Of a stretch of 64,000 nucleotides of DNA, positions 20,948-64,000 are shown piece by piece. The position numbers and the translations under genes are program-made. How positions within the stretch are numbered: the stretch's first letter is position 1; every line of letters starts with the position of its first letter. The notes under the pieces are model-generated. The model saw only the letters and a program-made list of their open reading frames with translations, was not told where the DNA came from and searched no databases. The DNA comes from Diphasiastrum complanatum (Eukaryota; Streptophyta; Lycopodiopsida; Lycopodiales; Lycopodiaceae): contig CM055093.1 in the NCBI GenBank assembly GCA_029204225.1, positions 19,890,041-19,954,040 of the forward strand, given 5' to 3'.

Positions 20948-22157
20948 TGTTGGATCATTCTCCTTCCTACTAATCGACTGATCAGTTTTTAATCTTCATG
21001 CAACTGTTTATCTAGTTCTGCGAAATTTCCCGTGTCTTTATACAATCTACAGAATTACAAGGGTTTTTACACAGTCTGTAGAAATACACGAAGTTTGACA
21101 ATAGTGTTGCATTTTCTCTCTCTACAAACCCGACAATGTTGCCTGTCAGGAATCTCGTGTATAAATGCAGTGTTGATTTTTTGCATTTTCCGCCTGTCAA
21201 AAATTATGTGTAAAAATGCAATGTCATCTTTTTCGCATTTTTCGCCTGTCAGGAATTATGTGTAAAAATGCAATGTCGTCTTTTTCGCATTTTTTGCCTG
21301 TCAAAAATTACGTGCAAAAATGCAATGTCGTCTTTTTCGCATTTTTCGCCTGTAGAAAATTATGAGTAAAAATGCAGTGTCACATTTTTTGTCTATGGCA
21401 ATTTACATTCATTTATGTAGAATGACAGTTTACGTTCATTTATGCAGACAGACTATTTATAGCCAATTGTAACCACTTATCAGTAAGTAGCTTCTGAGAA
21501 GAACTGGATGAATGCTAGCGAACACCAGCCAACTGGCAACCATATTTGATGACCTATTTACTTAGTATAAATCAGCTGTTCATACATCTCAATTATCATC
21601 TAAAAGATCAACATTGTGAATTGTGAAGGAGTTGAGTGTTATTACATGACCCTTCCTGCACTTTTATCAAACAGATCGTTCACAATTAGAAAGTAATGTT
21701 GTTAGCTATCTATCAAGCTTTCAAGCTTGAACTCTCTAGCTCAGTCTTTTAGAGATTTATTTTAGAGTTTCTATTGCACTATTGCTTATCAACAGAGTTT
21801 CTTATTTCAGACTTATTCTCAGTTACTCAAAGACAACTTTAGAGTGCGCGATTTCTATCTGCTATTGTTTGGACTCATTAGCATCTGATTTTGTTTTTCT
21901 GAGTCGATACTATTTTCTTATTAAGTTCAGTTTGTGTCAGAATGCAAGCATCTCTGTATTTCTTTTATGATTGATAGAAATTGTCTAAGAATTCAATACT
22001 TTATGTTTGGCTACGTAATCACCTAGTATCTAGCAAAAGTTAGTTGCTAAAGATTGAACCTAATTTCCATCACTACTGCTTTGTTTAATTTTTGATAAGC
22101 GTAGTCATGCATTGGAAGAAGGAAGTTTTCGCAACCTATTACTCACCCATTCCAACA
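20948..22157 (+). repeat. 5' LTR of copia F2
   Basis: TGTTGGATCATTC at the left and CATTCCAACA at the right (1210 bases), with the inverted ends TGTTGG/CCAACA. It aligns with 31016-32110. If the primer site in use is the perfect one at 22315, the LTR would end at 22314 instead. Five copies of a 52-base repeat lie in the left third. Confidence 0.75.
21141..21400 (+). repeat. 52-base minisatellite inside the LTR
   Basis: Units start at 21141, 21192, 21244, 21296 and 21348, each reading GCCTGT..AATTAYG then AAAAATGCARTGTC and CTTTTTCGCATTTTT. The same array, with more divergence, is in the 3' LTR (about 31205-31460), so it existed before this insertion. Confidence 0.85.
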
Positions 22158-31015: not shown

Positions 31016-32110
31016 TGTTGGATTATTCTCCTTCCTACTAATCAACTAATCGATTTTTAACCTTCATCCAGTTGTTTATCCAGTTCTGCGAATTTTTTCG
31101 TGTCTTTATACAGTCTGCAGAATTACAAGTGTTTTTACACAATCTGCAGAAATACACGGAGCTTGACAACAGTGTCGTATTTTCTCTCTTTACAAACCCG
31201 ACAGTGTCGTCTGTCAAGGATCACGTGTAAAAAATGCAATGTCGATTTTTTCGCATTTTTCGTTTGTCAGGAATTACATGTAAAAATGTAGTGTCATCTT
31301 TTTCTCTTTTTTTGTCTGTTAGAAATTATGTGTAAAACTGCAGTGTCATCTTTTTCGCATTTTTCGTCTGTCAGGAATTACGTGCAAAAATGTAGTGTCA
31401 CTTTTTTTTTCGCATTTTTTGCCTGTCAGAAATTACGAGTAAAAATGCAGTGTCACATTTTTTGCCTGTGGCAGTTTATTTTCATTTATGCAGAATGATA
31501 GTTTACGTTCATTTATGCAGACAAATTGTTTACGGCCAATTGTCACCGCTTATCAACAAGTAACTTCTGAGAAGAACTGGATGAATGCCAGCGGACACCA
31601 ACCAATTGGCAATCGCATTTGACCTAATTACTTAGTATAAATTAGTTGTTCATACATCTCAATTATCATCTGAAAGATCAACATTGTGAATTGTGAAGGA
31701 GTTGAGTGTTATTACACGACGCTTCCTGCGCTCTCATCAAGCAGATTGTTCACAATAAAAAAGTATTGTTGTTAGCTCTCTATCAAGCTTTCAAGCTTGA
31801 ACTCTCTTTAGCAAACTAGCTCAGTCTTTTAGAGATTTATTTTAGAGTTGCTATTGCACTACTGCTGATTAGCATAGTTGCTTATTTCAGACTTGTTCTC
31901 AGTTACTCAGAGATAACTTTAGAGTGCACGGTTTCTATCCGCTATTGTCTTGCACTCATTGGCATCTGATCTTGTTTTTTTGAATCAATATTATTTTCTT
32001 ATTGCGTTCAGTTTGTGTAAGAATGCATGCATCTCTGTATTGCTTTTGAAACTGATAGAAATTGTCTGAGAATTCAATACTTTATGTTTGGCTACGTAAT
32101 CACTTAGTAT
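31016..32110 (+). repeat. 3' LTR of copia F2, truncated
   Basis: Aligns with 20948-22030 from TGTTGGAT to TTAGTAT; after 32110 the two copies no longer match. About 130 terminal bases are therefore missing, and the external target duplication with them. Many point differences from the 5' LTR indicate an old insertion. Confidence 0.8.
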
Positions 32111-41057: not shown

Positions 41058-43075
41058 AAGAAATGCAAATTTGGTTTGCATGGCCCAACATCTTTTTTTT
41101 TCCCAAGTAGCACAGTTTAGCAATAAGAAATAAACCTTTCAAGCTGGCATAAGGACATGCATGATGTAGAAGATATCGGATCCTAATTTTCCAGCATCAT
41201 ACTTACCGTAGACCTATCAAAACTTTGCATCACGAAAGAATGTTTATTGAAACTAAGAAAGGTGGAATGTTTCTTGACCCTCTATCCAAAAAGCTACCTT
41301 CCTATTTGTTCTTATTTATGTTTTTGGTTTAGAATATTTTGCTCCGAAATGGCTTCAGCAACTTGTCTTCTTTCCTTTGTCATTGCACCTTCCAACATTA
41401 ACTGTTGTTTGTTTTTCCAAATATGAACTATGCAGGAGTCAATTGTTTTGTTCAGGTAAAGTTATTGAATAACTAACAAAAAATTCTATATGCTATCATT
41501 ATGAAAGAATGTTTACATTTCATGTATCTTGTACATGTCCAATTCTGATTTCGAAATGTTCACTGTTAGCTCTCGTTGTCTTCTATAGCAAATGCCTGCA
41601 ATGCATATGGATTGATGAGATAAATCTGAGATTGCTATATCAAATGATCAACAAGCATAAAGAATAATAGGCCAACAGATTTTTGAGTAACTCCTAGTCA
41701 CCCAGAAAAAGTGTCCGATGCCTATGATGAACCTAATTCTTGACTTGGCCGGCATGATTTTCTGAAGTACAAAAGAGGGAAGAGAGCTGCAACAGGTAAA
41801 GAAATTCAAGACTCGAGCGGCAAGTAGACACAATAATAGGAAAAGAAACAGAAAATACTTATCGATTACTAGCCAGTTCAAAAGACTACTGTCAAATGGC
41901 TTCTACAAAGATTATGTTCAAAAAGTAATGCATCTACACATAGACTAGTTTCACAGGCCTCCACTTCTTTCACGAAAGAGGGCTTTCGTACCACCTGCTA
42001 TTTTTACTAAATGCTGACTTTTGGACTTTTTGCATTGTCCAAGTGACCCAGGGTTAACATGACAACATCGCATACATCAACATACAACAACTTCTACTTT
42101 GCTTTTACACCCAAAGGCATTATAAAAGGAGAGACTTACCCTGTAGACACATCAGAGTAAGAGAAATCTACCATTCCTTGGAAATCCAATCATTGGTAAT
42201 CTAGTGCTGTAATCTAATTTTTTATGATATTGCTTTTTTATGTTATGTTTTATGTACGTTCTACTATTCCAAATGTCATGTTCTATGGTTTGTTACAAAG
42301 TTGATATTTTTTAGAATCAATTTAAGGCAATCCATTGCAAGACAACAAAAAAAAAAGATGCTTTTCAACGAAAATTGTTGCCCAATCGAAAGCTTAACAT
42401 TGATATTGGTTTTCTTTCTAAAGGTTCTTGCCATACCGTTTTTTGAATAACAATTTTCTCATTCCTCTTCCAAGAATCTCGCTCCCTCTACCAGTTTTGA
42501 GTGGATCTTGATATTTCTCTATGGACTCCAATTTTGATTTTCCCCTTCCCCCCATTGCCATTCCAAAAAAACAAGGTAATGTCTCTATATTTGTCATGAT
42601 GATACAAAAAAATCCAACGGCCTGAACATCATATCACATTCTACAAGCCATAAGCAAAGCAAGTCATTCCAAATTTGTGCACAAGTGAGATTCCTCCAAC
42701 GAGTGCAAGAGGATTCACACCTCACCATGAATTTTTGTGTCTCGTTACCGAGATGATCAGTTTCTGGCTTTTTATTAATTAGTCGATTGTTAATGAATTC
42801 TAATTCATGTTATGTGAATCACCTTTCCTCGTTCTTTTTTAGTACAATTGTAACACGAGTATTTAGAAATGCAAATGCAAATTATTTCTCATCAGTTGCT
42901 ATTTGTGATGTTGCTATCAACATGCTAAATTCTGACAAGGGAGATTGTCATTATCTATTGTACATACATTTATTATTATAAGACGGTTGTAATAAATAGC
43001 AGATAGCATTTAATGAAAGACAAATATTTGTCAAGTAGATATTTTGTAATATAAGAATCAACTAATGTTGGAGGG
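41058..43075. other. no gene seen
   Basis: AT-rich sequence. Around 42124 a TATA-like CATTATAAAAGGAGAG follows a run of sequence that could be a solo LTR (about 41940-42240), but no paired copy, primer site or TG...CA frame supports it. Confidence 0.35.
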
Positions 43076-43500
43076 TTTGCGGATCCCAAGGCAATTCTAA
43101 CCCTAGATTATGAGTGAGAGGGATTTGGCACTCTGCATGTGTAAGTCCAACCTGATGATCACATAGTTATTTGATTAGAAAGTCAATAAAAGGACTTTAG
43201 GCCTTTTTGCGGGACTTTTAATGTCGCAGGGCCTAAATGTCAAGTTAGTGAATAAAGTTGGGTTTCCCTCCAATTTGGATGGTTCCCGCTCTTTTTTAAA
43301 TTTGAATAATTAGGGAGGTAGAAATGGACCAATAGGATTCAGAGGCCAGGGTCCTCCTCTCTACTATAAAAAGGGACCAACTCGAGTTCCTACACATGCT
43401 CATTTCTTCATTTCAATAAAGCAGATTGGTTCTCTTGTGAATATTGGGATTGCATGTTATTATACTTTTTATGAGGGGGAGAAAGGGAGAGAGAGAAAGA
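43076..43500 (+). repeat. gypsy LTR, left copy
   Basis: Starts TGTTGGAGGGTTTGCGG and matches the sequence starting at 48413, which follows a polypurine tract. It contains CTACTATAAAAAGGG (43371, TATA box) and a CAATAAAGC signal near 43415. It lacks ~85 bases after 43440 that are present in the right copy. The right LTR limit is not defined because homology continues into the coding region. Confidence 0.65.
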
Positions 43501-43673
43501 GTAAGCTATCTTATTGTGGATCTAGTGTTAATGGATATAGTGTTAATGCTTAGGGTTAATGGATGTTAGAGTTAGATGTGAATCTTCCATTCATGCTGAA
43601 ATCTGAATTATACCATCGCTCTCATGGGAACGAATCTACGCGTGACAACTAACTTCGTCTCTTTGATACTAGA

Positions 43674-44363
43674 TTGATTAGATCTTGGATTGAGGTTAGG
43701 CAAGGAAAGAAACTTACGAATGAGCGAATTCTAGATCATATGGATCCGACTAGATTTGGAGTGCGTAATATTCCTAATGAACCAACAACAAAACTGCCCA
43801 AAGCAGTTATATTGAAAGAAGATAGGATCACAGGGTCAATGACGAAGAAACAAGCTAAGCAATATTATAATACGGTCTTGAAATGGAAAAATCCTCCTCA
43901 ACAGATTGATTCACGGCATGTGCCACCCTTACTGGATAAAGGCAAAGGAAAAGTCACTGATGATTCTACAAGTCAGAGTTCTAGCAAGACATCATCATCT
44001 CGGAAGACATCACCTCCACGATCGATTCCTGCTAAGAAGGCTAAGCGAAGATCCAAGACAAGTCCTTTCGACAAGGCACAAGCAGATGTAGTCCAGCATG
44101 ATATGATCGAACATTTTAAACGCTATACACTGGATGATGTGGTTATCATGTTACCTAAAGCACATCATGAACCCGAAGACCAGGTGCTAGACTCAAGAGA
44201 TGTTTACGATGGCCCAGCTAGGACACAACCAATGAATCTTGCCGAACCAAGAGAAGCGGAAAAGATTGTACAAGTTGGATCACAACTTAATCCTGAACAA
44301 TATCAAGCACTTCGCATGTTACTTAATAAGTATCAAGATTGCTTTGGACTTATCAAGATCTAA
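43674..44363 (+). pseudogene. Ty3/gypsy pol: linker before RT
   Basis: An open 229-codon frame. The first half (WIEVRQGKKLTNERILDHMD, KLPKAVILKEDRITGSMTKK, QYYNTVLKWKNPPQQIDSRH) and the basic Ser/Lys stretch are unassigned. The end (AEKIVQVGSQLNPEQYQALR, MLLNKYQDCFGL) is the usual lead-in to a gypsy RT of the Tat/Athila kind. Gag and protease are not found between the LTR and this frame, so the element is internally deleted. A one-base shift joins it to the RT at about 44340. Confidence 0.65.
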
Positions 44364-48396: not shown

Positions 48397-48410
48397 TTTT
48401 GGTGGGGGAT
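48397..48410 (+). promoter_or_regulatory. polypurine tract of the gypsy element
   Basis: TTTTGGTGGGGGAT two bases before TGTTGGAGGG, the typical arrangement before a 3' LTR. Confidence 0.75.
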
Positions 48411-48412
48411 AT

Positions 48413-48940
48413 TGTTGGAGGGTTTGCGGATCCAAAGGCAACCCTAACCCTAGTTAATAAGTGAGAGGGATTTGGCACCCTGCGTGTGTAAGTCCAACCC
48501 GATGATCACATAGTTATTTGATTAGAAAGTCAATAAAAGGACTTTAGGCCTTTTTGCGGGACTTTTAATCTCGCAGGGTCTAAATGTCAAGTTAGTGAAT
48601 AAAGTTGGGTTTCCCTCCAATTTGGATGGTTCCCGCTCTTTTTTAAATTTGAATAATTAGGGAGGTAGAAATGGACCAATAGGATTCAGCGGCCAGGGTC
48701 CTCCTCTCTACTATAAAAAGAGACCAACTCGAGTTCCTACACATGCTCATTTCTTCATTTCAATAAAGCAGATTGGTTCTATTGTGAAATAGATTGATGA
48801 ATGTCTTTGCTCTCTATCACTTTTCCTCCGTCTCTCATGCTTTCTTTCGATTTATCAATTGTTGGATCTGATTGTTATTGGGATTGCATGTTATTATACT
48901 TCTATGAGGGAGAAAGGGAAAGAGAGAAAGAGTAAGCTAA
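48413..48940 (+). repeat. gypsy LTR, right copy
   Basis: Starts TGTTGGAGGG and matches 43076 onward with a TATA box at 48711. It is followed not by unrelated flank but by the same downstream coding sequence as the left copy, so it serves as 3' LTR of one body and 5' LTR of a second, truncated one. It has ~85 bases that the left copy lacks. Confidence 0.7.
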
Positions 48941-49039
48941 CTTATTATGGATCTAGTGTTAATGGATGTAGTTTTAATGCTTAGGGTTAATGGATGTTAG
49001 AGTTAAATGTGAATCTTCCATTCATGCTGAAATCTGAAC

Positions 49040-49712
49040 ATTGATTAGATCTTGGATTGAGGTTAGGCAAGGAAAAAAACTTACGAATGAGTGAATTCTA
49101 GATCATATGGATCCGACTGGATTTGGAGTGCGTAATATTCCTAATGAACCAACAACAAAACTGCCCAAAGCAGTTATATTGAAAGAAGATAGGATCACAG
49201 GGTCAATGACGAAGAAACAAGCTAAGCAATATTATAATACGGTCTTGAAATGAAAAAATCCTCCTCAACAGATTGATTCACGGCATGTGCCACCCTTACT
49301 GGATAAAGGCAAAGGAAAAGTCACTGATGATTCTACAAGTCAGAGTTCTAGCAAGACATCATCATCTCGGAAGACATCACCTCCACGATCGATTCCTGCT
49401 AAGAAGGCTAAGCGAAGATCCAAGACAAGTCCTTTCGACAAGGCACAAGCAGATGTAGTCCAGCATGATATGATCGAACATTTTAAACGCTATACACTGG
49501 ATGATGTGGTTATCATGTTACCTAAAGCACATCATGAACCTGAAGACCAGGTGCTAGACTCAAGAGATGTTTACGATGGCCCAGCTAGGACACAGCCAAT
49601 GAATCTTGTCCTGACAAACTGTAGATATTTGGATCTAAAGACGAGATTGTGTTGTAAAAGACCCCACATAATAGAAAAAGTTTTTCTGAAAAAAATGGTG
49701 GGAAAGTGGTGA
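49040..49712 (+). pseudogene. second copy of the gypsy pre-RT frame, truncated
   Basis: Nearly identical to 43674-44240 (two differences in the last 140 shared bases) but with a TGG to TGA change at about 49250 that stops the frame before HVPPLLDKGKGK. Homology ends at 49608 (NL) and the rest is unrelated. The RT is absent. Confidence 0.75.
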
Positions 49713-56240: not shown

Positions 56241-56638
56241 AATGGAGGCCGATCTAGGTGGCGGCCAATGATTTGGATCATGGCTGATCTCGCACACCTC
56301 GCGAGAACTGATGATTTAGGAGGAAAGCTGATCAATGTATGTGTGTGTATGTACATGGCCAAAGTACGACGGGTGGACGTTGTAAGAGTATGTTTTGGGA
56401 ATGGAATTTTGCATGGTTTGAGAATGGAATTTTGTAGAATTCTGTAACGAAATGTTTTGAAATGAAATGATGTGGTGTTGGTTACGGTTACGAATAGGGT
56501 GGTGTTGGTTACAATTACGGATAGGACGGTCCTTATGCGGCCTAAATGCACTCCTTATGCAGCCTCAATGCGGTCCCTTTGTGGCCTAAATGCAGTCCTT
56601 GCAGTGAGGTTGCGGTTCATCCGCCATTGGTTTTCGTG

Positions 56639-56793
<155 letters not shown>

Positions 56794-56964
56794 CTGTCAT
56801 TCAGACCGTATTTCAACTAAACCGCAATCGCACCGCAAAGGGCCAGCATGCGGTTCATAATGATTCCAAGTCTCAAAGGAAGGAAATTGCAACCTTCCAA
56901 ACCGTAGAGTCAAAGTTGTGACGACCAACGGTAAGGGCCGAAACCTACAAAACGACATAGGGAC

Positions 56965-56994
56965 TGAGAGAGAGAGAGAGAGAGAGAAAACCAC

Positions 56995-57054
<60 letters not shown>
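56965..57054. repeat. (GA)n microsatellite pair
   Basis: Two GA tracts, 56965-56986 and 56997-57054, separated by AAACCACATA. Confidence 0.97.
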
Positions 57055-57055
<1 letters not shown>

Positions 57056-57107
57056 ATCCGAACAAGACTGTGAGAACCGTGAGTGAGAGCATTTTGGCCA
57101 CATAGGG

Positions 57108-57364
<257 letters not shown>

Positions 57365-57779
57365 CTTCATTCAGATCATATTTCAACTAAATTGCAATAA
57401 AACTAAACCACAACCGCATTGAAAAGGGCCAGCATTCGGTTCATAACGATTCCAAGCCAGAGCTTCAATGAGTCGCAAAGGAGGATCACTCTGTTAGTCC
57501 AACTGCTTCCAAGCAACCACTTCGACCTTTTTTGAATTCGAGGAGTGAAAAAAAAAATTCCAAGAAATGCATCATTTCTATTCTGATTATCATTTTTTTT
57601 GTGAGAGAGAGAGCCTGCTACTTGCAATCCAGAGAGAGAGAGACCCGCCTGTTGCTCACGATAGACAGAGAGATCTTGAAAGGAGGATCTTGAGAGACAG
57701 AGGAAATGAGAGATGGATCATGGAGAGACAAAGAGGGAGAGGGGGAGAGAGACATTTGAATTTTGAATTGGGAGGTGGG

Positions 57780-57940
57780 ACCAAGGGAGGTGCAATATGC
57801 ATGCATGGGGAGGGGGCCCATACATGGGGAGGAGGCCCCATACATGCACACTTTTTAGCTCAAAAAAGGCTCATGCATGGGTGAGGGGAGGAGCATGCAT
57901 GGTGCACCCATACCCATGCACAAAAGTGGAACAAAGTTTA
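57780..57940 (+). repeat. CATGCATG-rich dispersed repeat, copy 1
   Basis: ATATGCATGCATGGGGAGG, CCCCATACATGCA, AAAAAGGCTCATGCATGG, GTGAGGGGAGGAGCATGCAT and CACCCATACCCATGC occur in this order and recur in the same order at 59572-59755. Confidence 0.75.
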
Positions 57941-59571: not shown

Positions 59572-59760
59572 ATGCATGCATGGAGGAGGAACAATATGCA
59601 TGGAGGAGTCCCTAATATGCATGCATGCATGGGGAGGAGGGCCATGCATCCTTTTCCCCATACATGCATCCTCATCCCCAAGTTTTCTAGTTAGAAAAAG
59701 CTCATGGATGGGTGAGGGGAGGAGGATGCATGGGTGCACCCATACACATGCGCAAAAGCG
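59572..59760 (+). repeat. CATGCATG-rich dispersed repeat, copy 2
   Basis: Second copy of the unit at 57780-57940, with extra CATGCATGCATG (59617 region) and the same closing CACCCATACACATGC. The pair is 1.8 kb apart in direct orientation. The density of CATGCATG makes short frames rich in Met-His; these are not genes. Confidence 0.75.
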
Positions 59761-60199
59761 CATTTACGCCGTATAAGGACCGCAATTAGGCCGCATAGGG
59801 ACCATACAATCCCGATAATATTCAGATCTAACAATTAGCAAATACAACAAAAGCGAACAATGAAAAAGAATAAACCTCTCAAAGCTGATCTCTTGCATCA
59901 TACTGATGCATACATCTTCTATTTTTAATCCTTATTATCCAGTTGTTGGGGCTGCAACATGGGTATGCTGTGGCACCTAGGACCACTTGTGTGTCAGGGA
60001 TGATGGGATCAATACCATTGGTGAATAACATAAATACGCCTGTCAATTTTGGGAACCACCTGTATATACAAAAAGTAGAAAGAATTGGTATTATGCTTGT
60101 TTCCTAAAGATCAAGACATTCAGAGATGACTTAAAAGTTCATTTACTACATATCCATCTTGAAATGTTTTTCTAATAAAAGAATCACATGCGGAGGGAA

Positions 60200-60240
60200 C
60201 ACGTGCGAATATGATGGGACGTTCTACAGGTATAAAAGAA
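60200..60240 (+). promoter_or_regulatory. promoter elements of the H3-like gene
   Basis: G-box CACGTG at 60200-60205 and a TATA box TATAAAAG at 60231-60238, about 250 bases before the start codon. A pyrimidine-rich leader follows (60270-60320: TTCTTCTTTCTCTAG). Spacing predicts a start of transcription near 60262-60272. Binding is inferred, not shown. Confidence 0.55.
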
Positions 60241-60488
60241 AGTTTTCGGCTCATATTTCAGTTTTAATTCTTCTTTCTCTAGATCTCCTTAGTTTTCTTC
60301 GTTCACTTCCACTCCTCGTTAGATGCATATTGCTATCACGTGCCCAAGGACCCACATACCAGTACAGCTACCCCCCCCCCCATGCGTCGTGGCGATACGC
60401 CATCCCTCATATCGCCATCACGTGCCTCCCTTGTCGAATATCTGCTTTTCCTTCTCGTTGGCGCATCATATCGATATTCTATCTTGAA

Positions 60489-61043
60489 ATGGCCTGTACC
60501 AAGCAGACAACATGCCTTACCACATTTGTCCCGCCTCCTCGCCCTCTTGTACAAAGGGCAGTGGGCACTGGTAGGAGAGTAGGTCGGCCCAGAAGACCAT
60601 GGTTAAGGGATATCAGGAGACTTCAGAGGACAACGAATTTTCTGATTCCCCGTGCTCCTTTCTACAGGTATGTGAGATTAGTAACAAGGTCCCTCTCACA
60701 TGATGTTCGCTGGAACATAACAGCCTTGGAAGCCCTCCATATTGCCTATGAAAACCTCCAAGTCAAATTCTTTGAGGACTCCACGCTTTGCACAGTGCAC
60801 GCTAAGAGGGTTACCCTCATGCCTCAGGACATGCATCTTGTCATGAGGCCGAGGAGTACATACGATCAGGTCTTTAAGAGTGGCTTTACTTCTAGGACAC
60901 CACCTACAGAGAGAGGTCCTAGTCCTCAACGAAGAAGGAGGAAGCAGACCAAGCCCACCAGGCCTGCTAAGCAAAGAGTGGTACTCAACGAATCACCATC
61001 CCCCCCTCACATCTCTCGTCCTTTGGTTGGACCATCACACTAG
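60489..61043 (+). CDS. divergent histone H3-like protein with a C-terminal tail
   Basis: An open 184-codon frame from ATGGCC at 60489. The N-terminus ACTKQT matches the H3 start ARTKQT (Lys4 kept), but the following residues TCLT replace ARKS, so Lys9 is lost, and the tail is about ten residues shorter. The fold region aligns along its full length: WLRDIRRLQRTTNFLIP, FYRYVRLV, DVRWNITALEALHIAYENLQ, FFEDSTLCTVHAKRVTLM, PQDMHLVMR. Loop 1 has the length of canonical H3, while LIP, the Trp in VRW, DSTLC and RVTLM recall CENH3-type variants. A tail of about 60 residues, RTPPTERGPSPQRRRRKQTK and onward, is foreign to H3. Upstream codons back to 60159 are open, but they lie in the leader and TATA region and are unlikely to be coding. 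Confidence 0.7.
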   Translation: MACTKQTTCLTTFVPPPRPLVQRAVGTGRRVGRPRRPWLRDIRRLQRTTNFLIPRAPFYRYVRLVTRSLSHDVRWNITALEALHIAYENLQVKFFEDSTLCTVHAKRVTLMPQDMHLVMRPRSTYDQVFKSGFTSRTPPTERGPSPQRRRRKQTKPTRPAKQRVVLNESPSPPHISRPLVGPSH

Positions 61044-62198
61044 TCTGCAGTGCCTTCTTCTCCTCCCACCACCCCTAACTATTCAAGTAGTTCCTCTTCC
61101 ATTCCCTCCGTTCCATCCCACAATAACGAGGATATGAACTCGACTGTAGATAAAATAATATCGGATCTAGATTTAAGTTTAATAGGTGATTTTTATAAGG
61201 ATCTTTGTGTAAGATTTCATGTTGATCCCCAAAGATTCATTTTTGGATTCTGAGAGGTATATAATTTTTGATGAGTAAGTTGCCAAAGAAATTGATAAGC
61301 TAGGAGGTCAATTTTCTTTTTGCCTAAGTTCAATTAATTATATAAATCACATAAATAAAGACTTTTGCGATGCCCTGAAGGAGAAGACCTCAGATATATC
61401 AGATCCAGTTGTGGAGGCTAGTTTGATGTATTTTGTAAATAGATGTAAATCCGATGATAGTAAAGACATTGGAGTTGTGTTGTCCTTTTTTGCACACAGC
61501 CTTCATAGTCCAACTAAGGCGATGAAGTATCTTCTTCATACAACCTCGGAGACCAAAGTCTTTATTATTCCATACTGCCAAAAGTAAGTGATTACATAGA
61601 ATATATTCTAGTAATATTTTTAATAGGTATTGTAATTCCTTTAGTTTAACTAATTATCTCTTGTTTGTAGTAAGCATTGGAGTATGGATATAATCTCCCT
61701 TAGAGAAGATTCAGATGGGATCATTAATCCCATCTGTTTAAAGATGAACTCCTTAAAGTCTACCCATGTCGAAATGGACGTGATGTACAGCAGAATGTTG
61801 CCATTTTTGCCAAGGCCGGATGGGGCCACTGTAAATAGCCACCTGGAGATTGTTGATGCAAAAAGTAAGTATTTTTCATCAAGTATTTGATAGCTAATAT
61901 GATCTGTTTTTTTCAGAGTGCACAACTAACCTATTATATGTTTTGTGATTAAAGTCAGCTCAGCAAGATGATGGACATAGTTGTGGATGGTTCTCCATCC
62001 GCAATGTACAGGACTTTTTAGAGTGGTACATCATGCAATCCGGGGCTCCAGATATACGAAAGGTAAATAGACTAGTGAATGGCCTAATAAGTTATTTCTG
62101 ATTTGGTTTCTGATAAGTCAATTGACTCGGTTCTTTTGGATTTGCAGTATAAATGTCGAGCATTCTCAATGAATGAGATATATGAGTTTCGTCAATAA
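60489..62198 (+). pseudogene. histone H3-like domain fused to a Ulp1 (C48) protease domain
   Basis: Reconstructed as four exons: 60489-61583, 61671-61864, 61959-62062 and 62148-62198 (stop 62196), all with GT-AG introns and matching phases once one T is dropped from the T-run at 61239-61243; 481 codons. Residues 1-~130 are a divergent histone H3; ~130-220 are an Arg/Lys/Pro then Pro/Ser-rich linker; from ~260 on the sequence leads into a Ulp1-type SUMO-protease fold. The catalytic region reads FIIPYCQ, NKHWSMDII (His 61675-61677), CLKMNSLKSTH (Asn 61747-61749 where Asp is usual), QQDDGHSCGWFSIRN (Gln 61961 or 61964, Cys 61982-61984). Two in-frame stops (TAG 61041, TAA 61276) and the slip suggest a recent pseudogene; alternatively the H3 part ends at TAG as its own protein. 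Ulp1-like sequences are known to be captured by plant Mutator-like elements; no such ends were found here. Confidence 0.7.
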
Positions 62199-62493
62199 TG
62201 TTGGTGAACTTATTATCTCATGCAACACCCAGTCCAGCTGCGGAAACGGGAGGCCAATCAAGTCCACAACTGACACTGGTGTAGGGTAGATAATCCATAT
62301 TACTTTGAGCTGTAAATAAAAGATTAAATAGAGATATACATTTTTGATGTAATGCCCTATGAATAATTATGGGCATATACAAAGATAGAGACAATGGGAA
62401 AAAAGCATCCATTGTTATATACAGGACACACATGTACATTCTCAGAAAATGAGAAATTTATTGATATTTATGAGAGCTTTTACAAATCTTGTA
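62199..62493. other. short gap between convergent genes
   Basis: Shared 3' flank of the two genes at the right end. AATAAA-like words occur (AATAAAAG at 62315 region). No coding frame. Confidence 0.4.
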
Positions 62494-63856
62494 TCATGAT
62501 TGCTCTATTATCTGAACAACTTCGCCCAAATCTTTGCATTTGATTTTCTCTTCATGTCTTTTACGTATCTGCACAAACATACATAATCAAATTACAGTTA
62601 GTGATCCGAATATTGACAAAAAGAATAATGAATACAAATTAATATACAAATTCATAGATTTCACATACCAATTTTCCATCCAATATAAAGTTGAAATATT
62701 CGGGGATATATTGCTGTAAAAGTGTCAGTTCCGTTCTAATGTAGAATAAGGTCCAGTCCTGCTCAACCTCAATATTAGTAAGTAACTCCCCATTGGCCAT
62801 GATATCAATGCATATACGATCAGTGTGTCCAATGCTGTCTAGATCTTGATCTAATGGGGCCCAAGTACCATTGTGTTCTTTCCATCTCTGATAATGAAAC
62901 ACCATACTAAGCATTTGCTTCTCTATACTGTATCTAAATGATATGGATGAATGTTTGATTCTACAAGAAATATCTGCAGTGGATCTTATATCCCAACCTT
63001 TGTCCATGAATTTGAATAAAAAATCATCTGATAGATTTTTGCAAACAAACAATGTGGGAGTTCGAAGCACTTCCGTGTTTGAAAAAGAGCTGACAAACAA
63101 TGACATTGGAACAAACCAGCTTAAGTGCACATTTCTTGATCCAGTATTAGTTTTGAGTGACTTTTGTACATCATTATATAGCTGGAACGAAAGCATTTTA
63201 TTATATTGTCATTGACTGCAATCCACCACACGTTATCTTGAAAAATAGGTAGAGGTATATGCTCTAGTTTTCTCATTCCTCCATTTGTGTCTGGAATATA
63301 CATAGCATCATAAGAAAATATTCCAGAATCTGCAAGTTCTTTTGTCGTTCGTCCTCTGTATTGCAATTTGCCAATTTCTGAATGGATGACATCTATAATA
63401 CCTGAAAGAGACGCCATAGGTTCCCATTCATGTATATTTGAAGGATATAGATCTGCAATACATAATCATAATAAGCTCCAATTCATAAATACGATTACGT
63501 TTTAAAAATGACAAGCAATCCAAAAAATTAAGATACTTACAATTACACTTTCGAAAATCATGTGGATTTACAGCCTCCACATTAAGTCCCGAATGCATAT
63601 AAACATGTTGAATAAGCACTTCTGAAATGGTTTGTCCTCCTGGAGAAACTTTGAAATCAATAATCCGCCCTTTCCAATAAGATCTATATGTATACTTGGC
63701 CTTTTTCTTTTGGCAAAAAGCCCCTCTCGCCGATGGATGCATCAGTACCCAAGAAGCCTTATGATATTCACGAGCAATCCATGTGCCATCGTCTTCCCTC
63801 TCATTATAAAAAATTGCAGAGCATATCAAAAGTCTCGGTCTCCTTCTCATCGCCAT
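62494..63856 (-). pseudogene. unrecognised three-exon gene with a ubiquitin-like C-terminal region
   Basis: Exon 1 63856-63541 (MAMRRRPRLLICSAIFYNER; donor GTAAGT), exon 2 63452-62669 (YLYPSNIHEWEPMASLSGII; donor GTATGT), exon 3 62568-62494 (IRKRHEEKIKCKDLGEVVQI, stop). The introns are 88 and 100 bases with clean GT-AG ends. The summed exons are 1175 bases, one short of a whole number of codons, and the frame does change near 63190 (WWIAVNDNII to MLSFQLYNDV), so a single-base loss explains it. The protein is about 390 residues with no transposase motif. Residues near the end (RICIDIMANGELLTNIEVEQ, DWTLFYIRTELTLLQ, FNFILDGKL) have the spacing of a beta-grasp, ubiquitin-like fold; this is a visual judgement. 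I do not recognise the family. Confidence 0.55.
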
Positions 63857-64000
63857 AGCTTGAAGAGTTCACGTTTGAACTCGTCAATATGAGAGTCCAG
63901 AGTATAATAGGCGCCAAACCTATTTGTGAGTCCCAAGATAATTTTAACTTGAGGTCAACCCAAGCAGTTTAGTCAACTAGTCGTCACGCACGCCAGCCAA
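63857..64000 (-). promoter_or_regulatory. 5' flank of the minus-strand gene
   Basis: A dyad GAGTTCA-CGTT-TGAACTC (63865-63882) lies just upstream of the start codon. On the minus strand TTGACT and TTGACC (W-box-like) occur near 63970-63950 and a TATTATAC near 63909. These are weak signals; the region is cut by the window end. Confidence 0.3.

Follow-up and report, generated by a model that had tools for sequence, protein, structure and literature searches.

What kind of gene begins at position 60489 of the window (the whole 64,000-nt stretch of DNA analyzed here), where an open reading frame resembling histone H3 is followed by the pieces of a Ulp1/C48 SUMO-protease domain? A sequence-only reading of the locus had proposed that the two belong to one gene, reconstructed from four exons. 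Judged from the reading frames of related copies, an H3-Ulp1 fusion does exist in this genome, but not in the window copy. We somewhat favor the explanation that the window holds the decayed form of a gene that belongs to a high-copy element, likely a plant transposon, and whose product would have combined an H3 part with a Ulp1/C48 part, entered nucleosomes and removed SUMO nearby.

Gene layout and disruption of the window copy

The features of the gene all lie on the plus strand. The H3-like part (60489-61043) opens with a tail reading MACTKQT, continues through a histone fold at about residues 33-122 and closes with a basic extension, which in the window copy is terminated by the TAG at 61041-61043. 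A TATA-like motif, TATAAAAG, matches the consensus at 60231-60237, 258 nt ahead of the ATG, and is found in other copies too; it is a putative promoter element. Beyond the TAG, a Pro/Ser-rich linker in the H3 frame (61044-61232) leads to the zone of a one-base frame change (61228-61233), which of L009-L011 only the window copy has, then to a second in-frame stop, TAA (61276-61278), and to the Ulp1-side part of exon 1, which is open in the window copy (61279-61583). Three introns are predicted to follow, at 61584-61670 (GTAAGT...TTTGTAG, 87 nt), 61865-61958 (94 nt) and 62063-62147 (85 nt). They set apart exon 2 (61671-61864), with a His codon at 61675 and, at 61747, Asn where the catalytic Asp would be expected, exon 3 (61959-62062), with the Gln codon at 61964 and the Cys codon at 61982 (QDDGHSCGW), and exon 4 (62148-62198), which ends in the stop TAA at 62196-62198. 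A possible poly(A) signal, AATAAA, lies at 62315-62320. The GC content is 50.7% in the H3 part versus 36-46% in the main Ulp1 exons, a difference that we count against the favored explanation.

Much of the earlier reconstruction was reproduced. The frame starting at ATG 60489 matches the Pfam Histone profile (E=6.9e-23, residues 26-120) as well as H3 chains in the PDB, and the four exons and three GT-AG introns, which we infer to be spliced, were recovered with the coordinates given above and fitting phases. The length of 481 codons including the stop also holds once one base is skipped (1095-1+194+104+51=1443), and it is the position of this base that had to be revised. It had been placed in a run of T, and since that run is identical in L010 and L011, both of which keep the frame, the change cannot lie there; exon 1 measures 1094 nt in these two copies versus 1095 in the window, and the difference falls upstream of the T-run, in a C/A-run at about 61228-61233. 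The reconstructed frame also holds the TAA at 61276-61278, which had been missed. A 91-nt rescue intron (61209-61299) was considered and discarded because other copies read that stretch in frame. Interrupted by the TAG, the one-base frame change and the TAA, the window copy itself cannot yield the protein. Taken alone, the window makes a modest case for one gene, because a linker equally open arose in 114 of 5000 Markov samples and the +1 frame is likewise open as far as 61137, so that the open linker by itself is little proof.

Related copies in the source genome

The genome from which the window comes measures 1.74 Gb; searching it gave at least 42 stretches of 91-100% identity, mostly covering the whole gene, with scores computed for 40 of 1048 candidates and two copies, as judged by eye, split into two matches each. 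Among the 20 copies fetched, the stops are confined to the window copy and two near-identical copies, L010 and L011; the other 17 have a sense codon, either CAG or CAT, in place of the TAG, and TAT in place of the TAA. L044 is unbroken from its ATG (MARTKQTARLTT) up to the splice donor, across the H3 part, the linker and the beginning of the Ulp1 region, and L018 and its near-identical relatives (C289, C5 and C1254) stay open for 336 codons between the histone fold and that donor. Exon 1 of L044 matched the Pfam Histone profile (8.5e-25) and not C48, the C48 match lying in the second and third exons. In L044 the second exon is broken, and each of the 20 fetched copies is interrupted somewhere in its four exons, which leaves no complete, intact gene among them. 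When spacing was compared in this first family (29 of 150 histone matches and 14 of 150 Ulp1 matches, chosen by eye), 9 of the 29 histone matches had a Ulp1 match 394-424 bp downstream.

The order H3, linker, Ulp1, which the sequence-only reading had suggested looking for in other copies, was found there, and again in a second subfamily. A histone-fold query from HTR12 gave 150 scored matches among 5516 candidates, 13 at 92-93 bits and 137 lower. L039, the one checked from the group of 13, is a canonical H3, and L043, from the lower-scoring 137, matches Histone (1.3e-25) and, once its exon pieces are linked through X, also C48 (7.7e-6, 26.3 bits). The motifs of L043 are HW, KMN and QQNDSFNCGW, with His, Gln and Cys kept and Asn at the Asp position, and its histone fold is identical to that of L044 at 46 of 91 residues. 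Its exon-1 protein, used as a query, gave at least 143 scored copies (9645 candidates), nearly all spanning the full 268 residues. In 33 of the 143, no stop interrupts the H3 part, the linker or the beginning of the Ulp1 part. For 45 of the 143, the catalytic exon follows 151-204 bp downstream on the same strand, and for none does it lie on the other strand, a count drawn from 49 of 150 matches chosen by eye as near. Stops in second-subfamily frames are mostly TAG, often one per copy, a pattern that might be explained by decay of CAG sites carrying methylation.

The outcome named beforehand as fatal to the fusion, that the relatives of the H3 part all end at TAG 61041, is not what the copies hold, because the H3 part, the linker and the Ulp1 region share one frame in them. 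The single H3-Ulp1 gene thus stands in the frames of other copies and falls in the window copy, with its stops and frame change.

Histone character and kinship of the H3 part

The closest solved chain to the window H3 frame in a PDB sequence search is H3.Y (1.1e-20), and the best 60 of 179 matches are all named H3 forms. At 20 chosen positions, which we take to be contact or signature residues of H3, 15 are unchanged in the window and R63, K64, L65, Q68 and F84 are changed; the copies share with canonical H3 its conserved H3-H3' and DNA-contact residues. An AlphaFold prediction of this frame, made with no alignment, was poor (pLDDT 42.7), which counts against the favored explanation.

The tail departs from H3 beyond MARTKQTAR, a start that several copies have. 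K4 is the sole lysine among residues 1-92 of the window copy, where none of the canonical tail lysines K9, K14, K18, K23, K27 and K36 is present. K4 is found in 14 of 14 copies, as is Leu at the K9 position, and other tail lysines occur in single or few copies. The Q68 position holds Tyr in 13 of the 14 and a stop in one, and the F84 position Trp in nine, a stop in four and Arg in one.

Kinship was counted in a hand alignment with reference sequences, in which the window fold agrees at 40 of 90 columns with H3.1, 42 with HTR12, 39 with cereal CENH3 and 40 with CENP-A. L044 agrees with the host H3 (L039) at 42 of 90 and with HTR12 at 44 of 89, and L043 with the same two at 46 and 44 of 84. The H3 part shares with plant CENH3 (Arabidopsis HTR12) the LIPxA motif, TLM, a replaced Gln68 and a Trp in place of F84, and the replacement of the conserved H3 glutamine and the non-canonical tail count as CENH3 traits present in the window family. 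A longer loop 1 is described as a hallmark of CENH3 in passages of PMC11633173 and PMC4770206; loop 1 is one residue longer in L043, whereas in the window family it has the length of H3, unlike plant CENH3. CENH3 is not clearly preferred over H3, and membership was set aside because loop 1 of the window family lacks the CENH3 extension.

The Ulp1/C48 part and constraint on the coding sequence

The Ulp1/C48 domain that the sequence-only reading had named was matched by Peptidase_C48 once the pieces at 61279-61583, 61671-61864, 61959-62062 and 62148-62198 were joined (21.5 bits, E=2.4e-4; cut-off 20.7), and the whole read-through gave 23.1 bits (E=7.4e-5). Scanned singly against Pfam, three of the four exon pieces were without a C48 match; the Ulp1 part found no match in the PDB up to E=10, and an NCBIfam comparison gave no lead. 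The putative catalytic residues are kept as His in 14 of 14 copies, Gln in 13 and Cys in 13, and the Asp position is occupied by Asn in all 14.

Constraint was assessed over 14 of the 20 copies, after six near-duplicates had been dropped. The dN/dS ratio is 0.44 in the H3 part, 0.84 in the linker and 0.47 in the Ulp1 part. When N/S was compared with 200 permuted sets, in which the same changes were placed at random, the H3 part lay below all of them (1.57 vs 1.88-2.81), the Ulp1 part barely so (2.12 vs 2.15-3.12), and the linker within their range (2.87; 2.07-3.19). These figures support the view that amino-acid changes are fewer than expected by chance in the H3 and Ulp1 parts, slightly so in the latter, and not in the linker; because the copies are related and decayed and their pairs are not independent, they are to be read as support and not as formal probabilities.

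The repeated element

The gene lies within a longer repeated unit, of which the window holds 60201-64000 (plus strand): homology begins at about 60199-60201 and continues beyond the end of the window as far as about 64191, and the upstream half is missing. The right end is sharp at GAACTCCTGTAATG in 16 of 20 copies, and the left end starts CATTAGAGGAGTTACAAAC (CATTAGAGGAG) in 9 of 9 left ends examined, two pairs of which are duplicates. Both ends begin CATTA and form imperfect inverted repeats with 6-7 differences in 31 bp; they lie about 8.8 kb apart in L017, and the left end by itself gave at least 40 scored matches (857 candidates). From left to right, the unit in L018 carries a plus-strand gene that we call gene A, a minus-strand gene, the H3-Ulp1 gene and then another gene on the minus strand. 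Starting at about 60200, the window copy is without gene A and the first minus-strand gene. Its convergent multi-exon gene (62495-63857, minus strand) lies within the repeated unit, occurs in other copies as well, is broken in the window by a single frame change at about 63200 and found no Pfam match above the cut-off. Gene A, seen upstream in L018, occupies the plus strand from about -5000 to -2400 relative to the H3 start, and its pieces are coiled-coil-like and Cys-containing (SKHPCLYC). It is a candidate transposase of no assigned type; none of its four pieces matched Pfam, and the one piece compared with solved structures had no relative at E<0.1.

The many copies and the inverted ends make it likely that the repeated unit is a transposon, and they support the sequence-only reading's alternative of a transposon-captured fusion. 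The term is likely and not proven because no convincing target duplication and no recognized transposase came to light: no target-site duplication flanks the ends of L014, L017 or L021, the AGA/AGA flanking the ends of L024 lies beside a microsatellite, and no MULE/KIU or CACTA transposase was matched by Pfam among the pieces scanned. CACTA ends were discarded, with one pattern match, at chance level, and an inverted repeat at 59901-59916/63732-63747 was discarded as the element ends because the real ends map elsewhere. In L016, the stretch from -288 to -108 occurs three further times upstream of the gene, about 620 bp apart; these are possible regulatory repeats of the element.

The window holds other repeats as well. 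Blocks of the GCATGCATGGGGAGG type recur at a spacing of about 1.8 kb immediately before the element (57786-57926 and 59585-59758), and very long (GA)n/(CT)n tracts at 56604-57386 are the source of spurious Ser-Leu and Arg-Glu ORFs. A direct repeat of 91-99% identity (43063-43972 / 48410-49339) is spaced about 5.35-5.43 kb near Gypsy-type ORFs; another, 86-92% identical (20948-22029 / 31016-32110), has an LTR-like spacing of about 10.07 kb, and each of its arms holds a 52-nt tandem repeat. Retrotransposon ORFs account for six of the ten tested, from 38 long ORFs; together with the sizes of the introns and the traits of the histone, these retrotransposons point to a plant as the source.

Proposed role and rival explanations

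By analogy, the most likely use of the fusion would be as a chromatin-tethered SUMO protease that aids the element against silencing. Pairing with H4 would bring the H3 part into nucleosomes, where the Ulp1 part, if active and if SUMO is its substrate, would cut SUMO off neighboring chromatin proteins and keep the element's own or adjacent chromatin SUMO-poor and hard to silence. The analogy is with Ulp1-bearing Vandal elements, which are thought to counter silencing: passages of PMC13317346 give the role of Ulp1 in KIU-carrying Vandals as unknown and have these elements induce hypomethylation of related ones, and VANC proteins take off silent marks, as told in part of PMC10398659. A centromeric target is our second choice; a portion of PMC12903445 reports that SUMOylation of alpha-KNL2 controls CENH3 loading and that ULP1d interacts with alpha-KNL2. 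A bolder version, which we regard as tentative and rather doubtful, has a lineage of transposons building chromatin of its own, in which an H3 variant without the silencing lysines, joined to a SUMO protease, would be deposited on its copies or on centromeres and remove the SUMO that silencing requires. Why transposons keep Ulp1 is an open question, and a fusion held in two old subfamilies suggests a protease aimed at chromatin. If this is true, it would be a histone with a built-in enzyme, and a natural tool for the effect of local SUMO loss on silencing or centromeres.

It is also conceivable, if unlikely, that the fusion protein is real and its Ulp1 part no longer an enzyme, binding SUMO or SUMO-modified proteins and recruiting them to nucleosomes. 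The Asn that replaces the catalytic Asp throughout the sampled copies, and recurs as KMN in the diverged L043, argues for such a loss, as does the weakness of the Ulp1 constraint relative to H3; yet His, Gln and Cys persist in nearly every copy and in L043, and a His-Asn-Cys arrangement functions in papain-type proteases. Quite improbable, in our judgment, is that the H3-Ulp1 gene is captured passenger cargo of no use to the repeats, with constraint left over from a former host gene. Decay is seen in each of the 20 fetched copies, and transposon capture is on record for H3 in fungi (in part of PMC6710886) and for Ulp1 in plants (in parts of PMC13317346 and PMC8978399), but the same order in very many copies of two subfamilies, with H3 parts as diverged as those of L043 and L044, would hardly be expected unless selection had acted for a long time within the element. 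Two adjacent genes, with TAG 61041 closing the H3 part, we find barely credible and refuted as a general structure (an alternative ending in some copies being possible): the breaks of the window copy do fall between the halves and the +1 frame there is open as well, but the stops are missing from most fetched copies, and L044 and the stop-free second-subfamily matches run straight through.

Comparison with known systems

Full-text literature searches turned up no report of an H3-Ulp1 protein in the titles and abstracts among the matches listed. A protein database search limited to proteins of about 265-841 residues gave no match at E<=0.001 for residues 215-481 (442 candidates) or 1-184 (328 candidates). 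The viral_contigs and genome_contigs collections held no match either. Absence is weak in all of these collections, the protein database included, since they seem plant-poor, and the contig negatives say little because canonical H3 was also unmatched in viral_contigs. Transposons with Ulp1 and fungal transposons with H3 are known already; H3 joined to Ulp1 is what we did not find reported.

Relative to canonical H3 (PF00125; the host L039), the H3 part has the same fold and, in several copies, the same start, but no common tail lysine past K4, and it is extended at its C-terminus by the linker and the Ulp1 part. Like the plant Ulp1-bearing MULE genes of the Kaonashi/KIU and VANC type, as described in passages of PMC13317346, it places a C48 gene in a multi-copy element; unlike them, its partner is an H3 fold, the ends are short inverted repeats, and neither VANC nor a MULE transposase was found among the pieces scanned. 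A Ulp1 domain in a DNA transposon with inverted ends also recalls Ginger1, Mutator and CACTA, to judge from portions of PMC2836005 and PMC8978399, papers that nowhere use the word histone; part of PMC2836005 discusses an active role of Ulp1 in transposition as possible for Ginger, and there, unlike in the H3-Ulp1 gene, the domain sits on the transposase. Closest on the histone side are the Dothideomycete hAT transposons with a captured H3 that part of PMC6710886 describes, elements of similar size (9.5 kb) present in hundreds of copies. Those carry a host H3 coding sequence joined to no protease, whereas the element described here carries a diverged H3 joined to Ulp1, interrupted by predicted introns and found in two old subfamilies.
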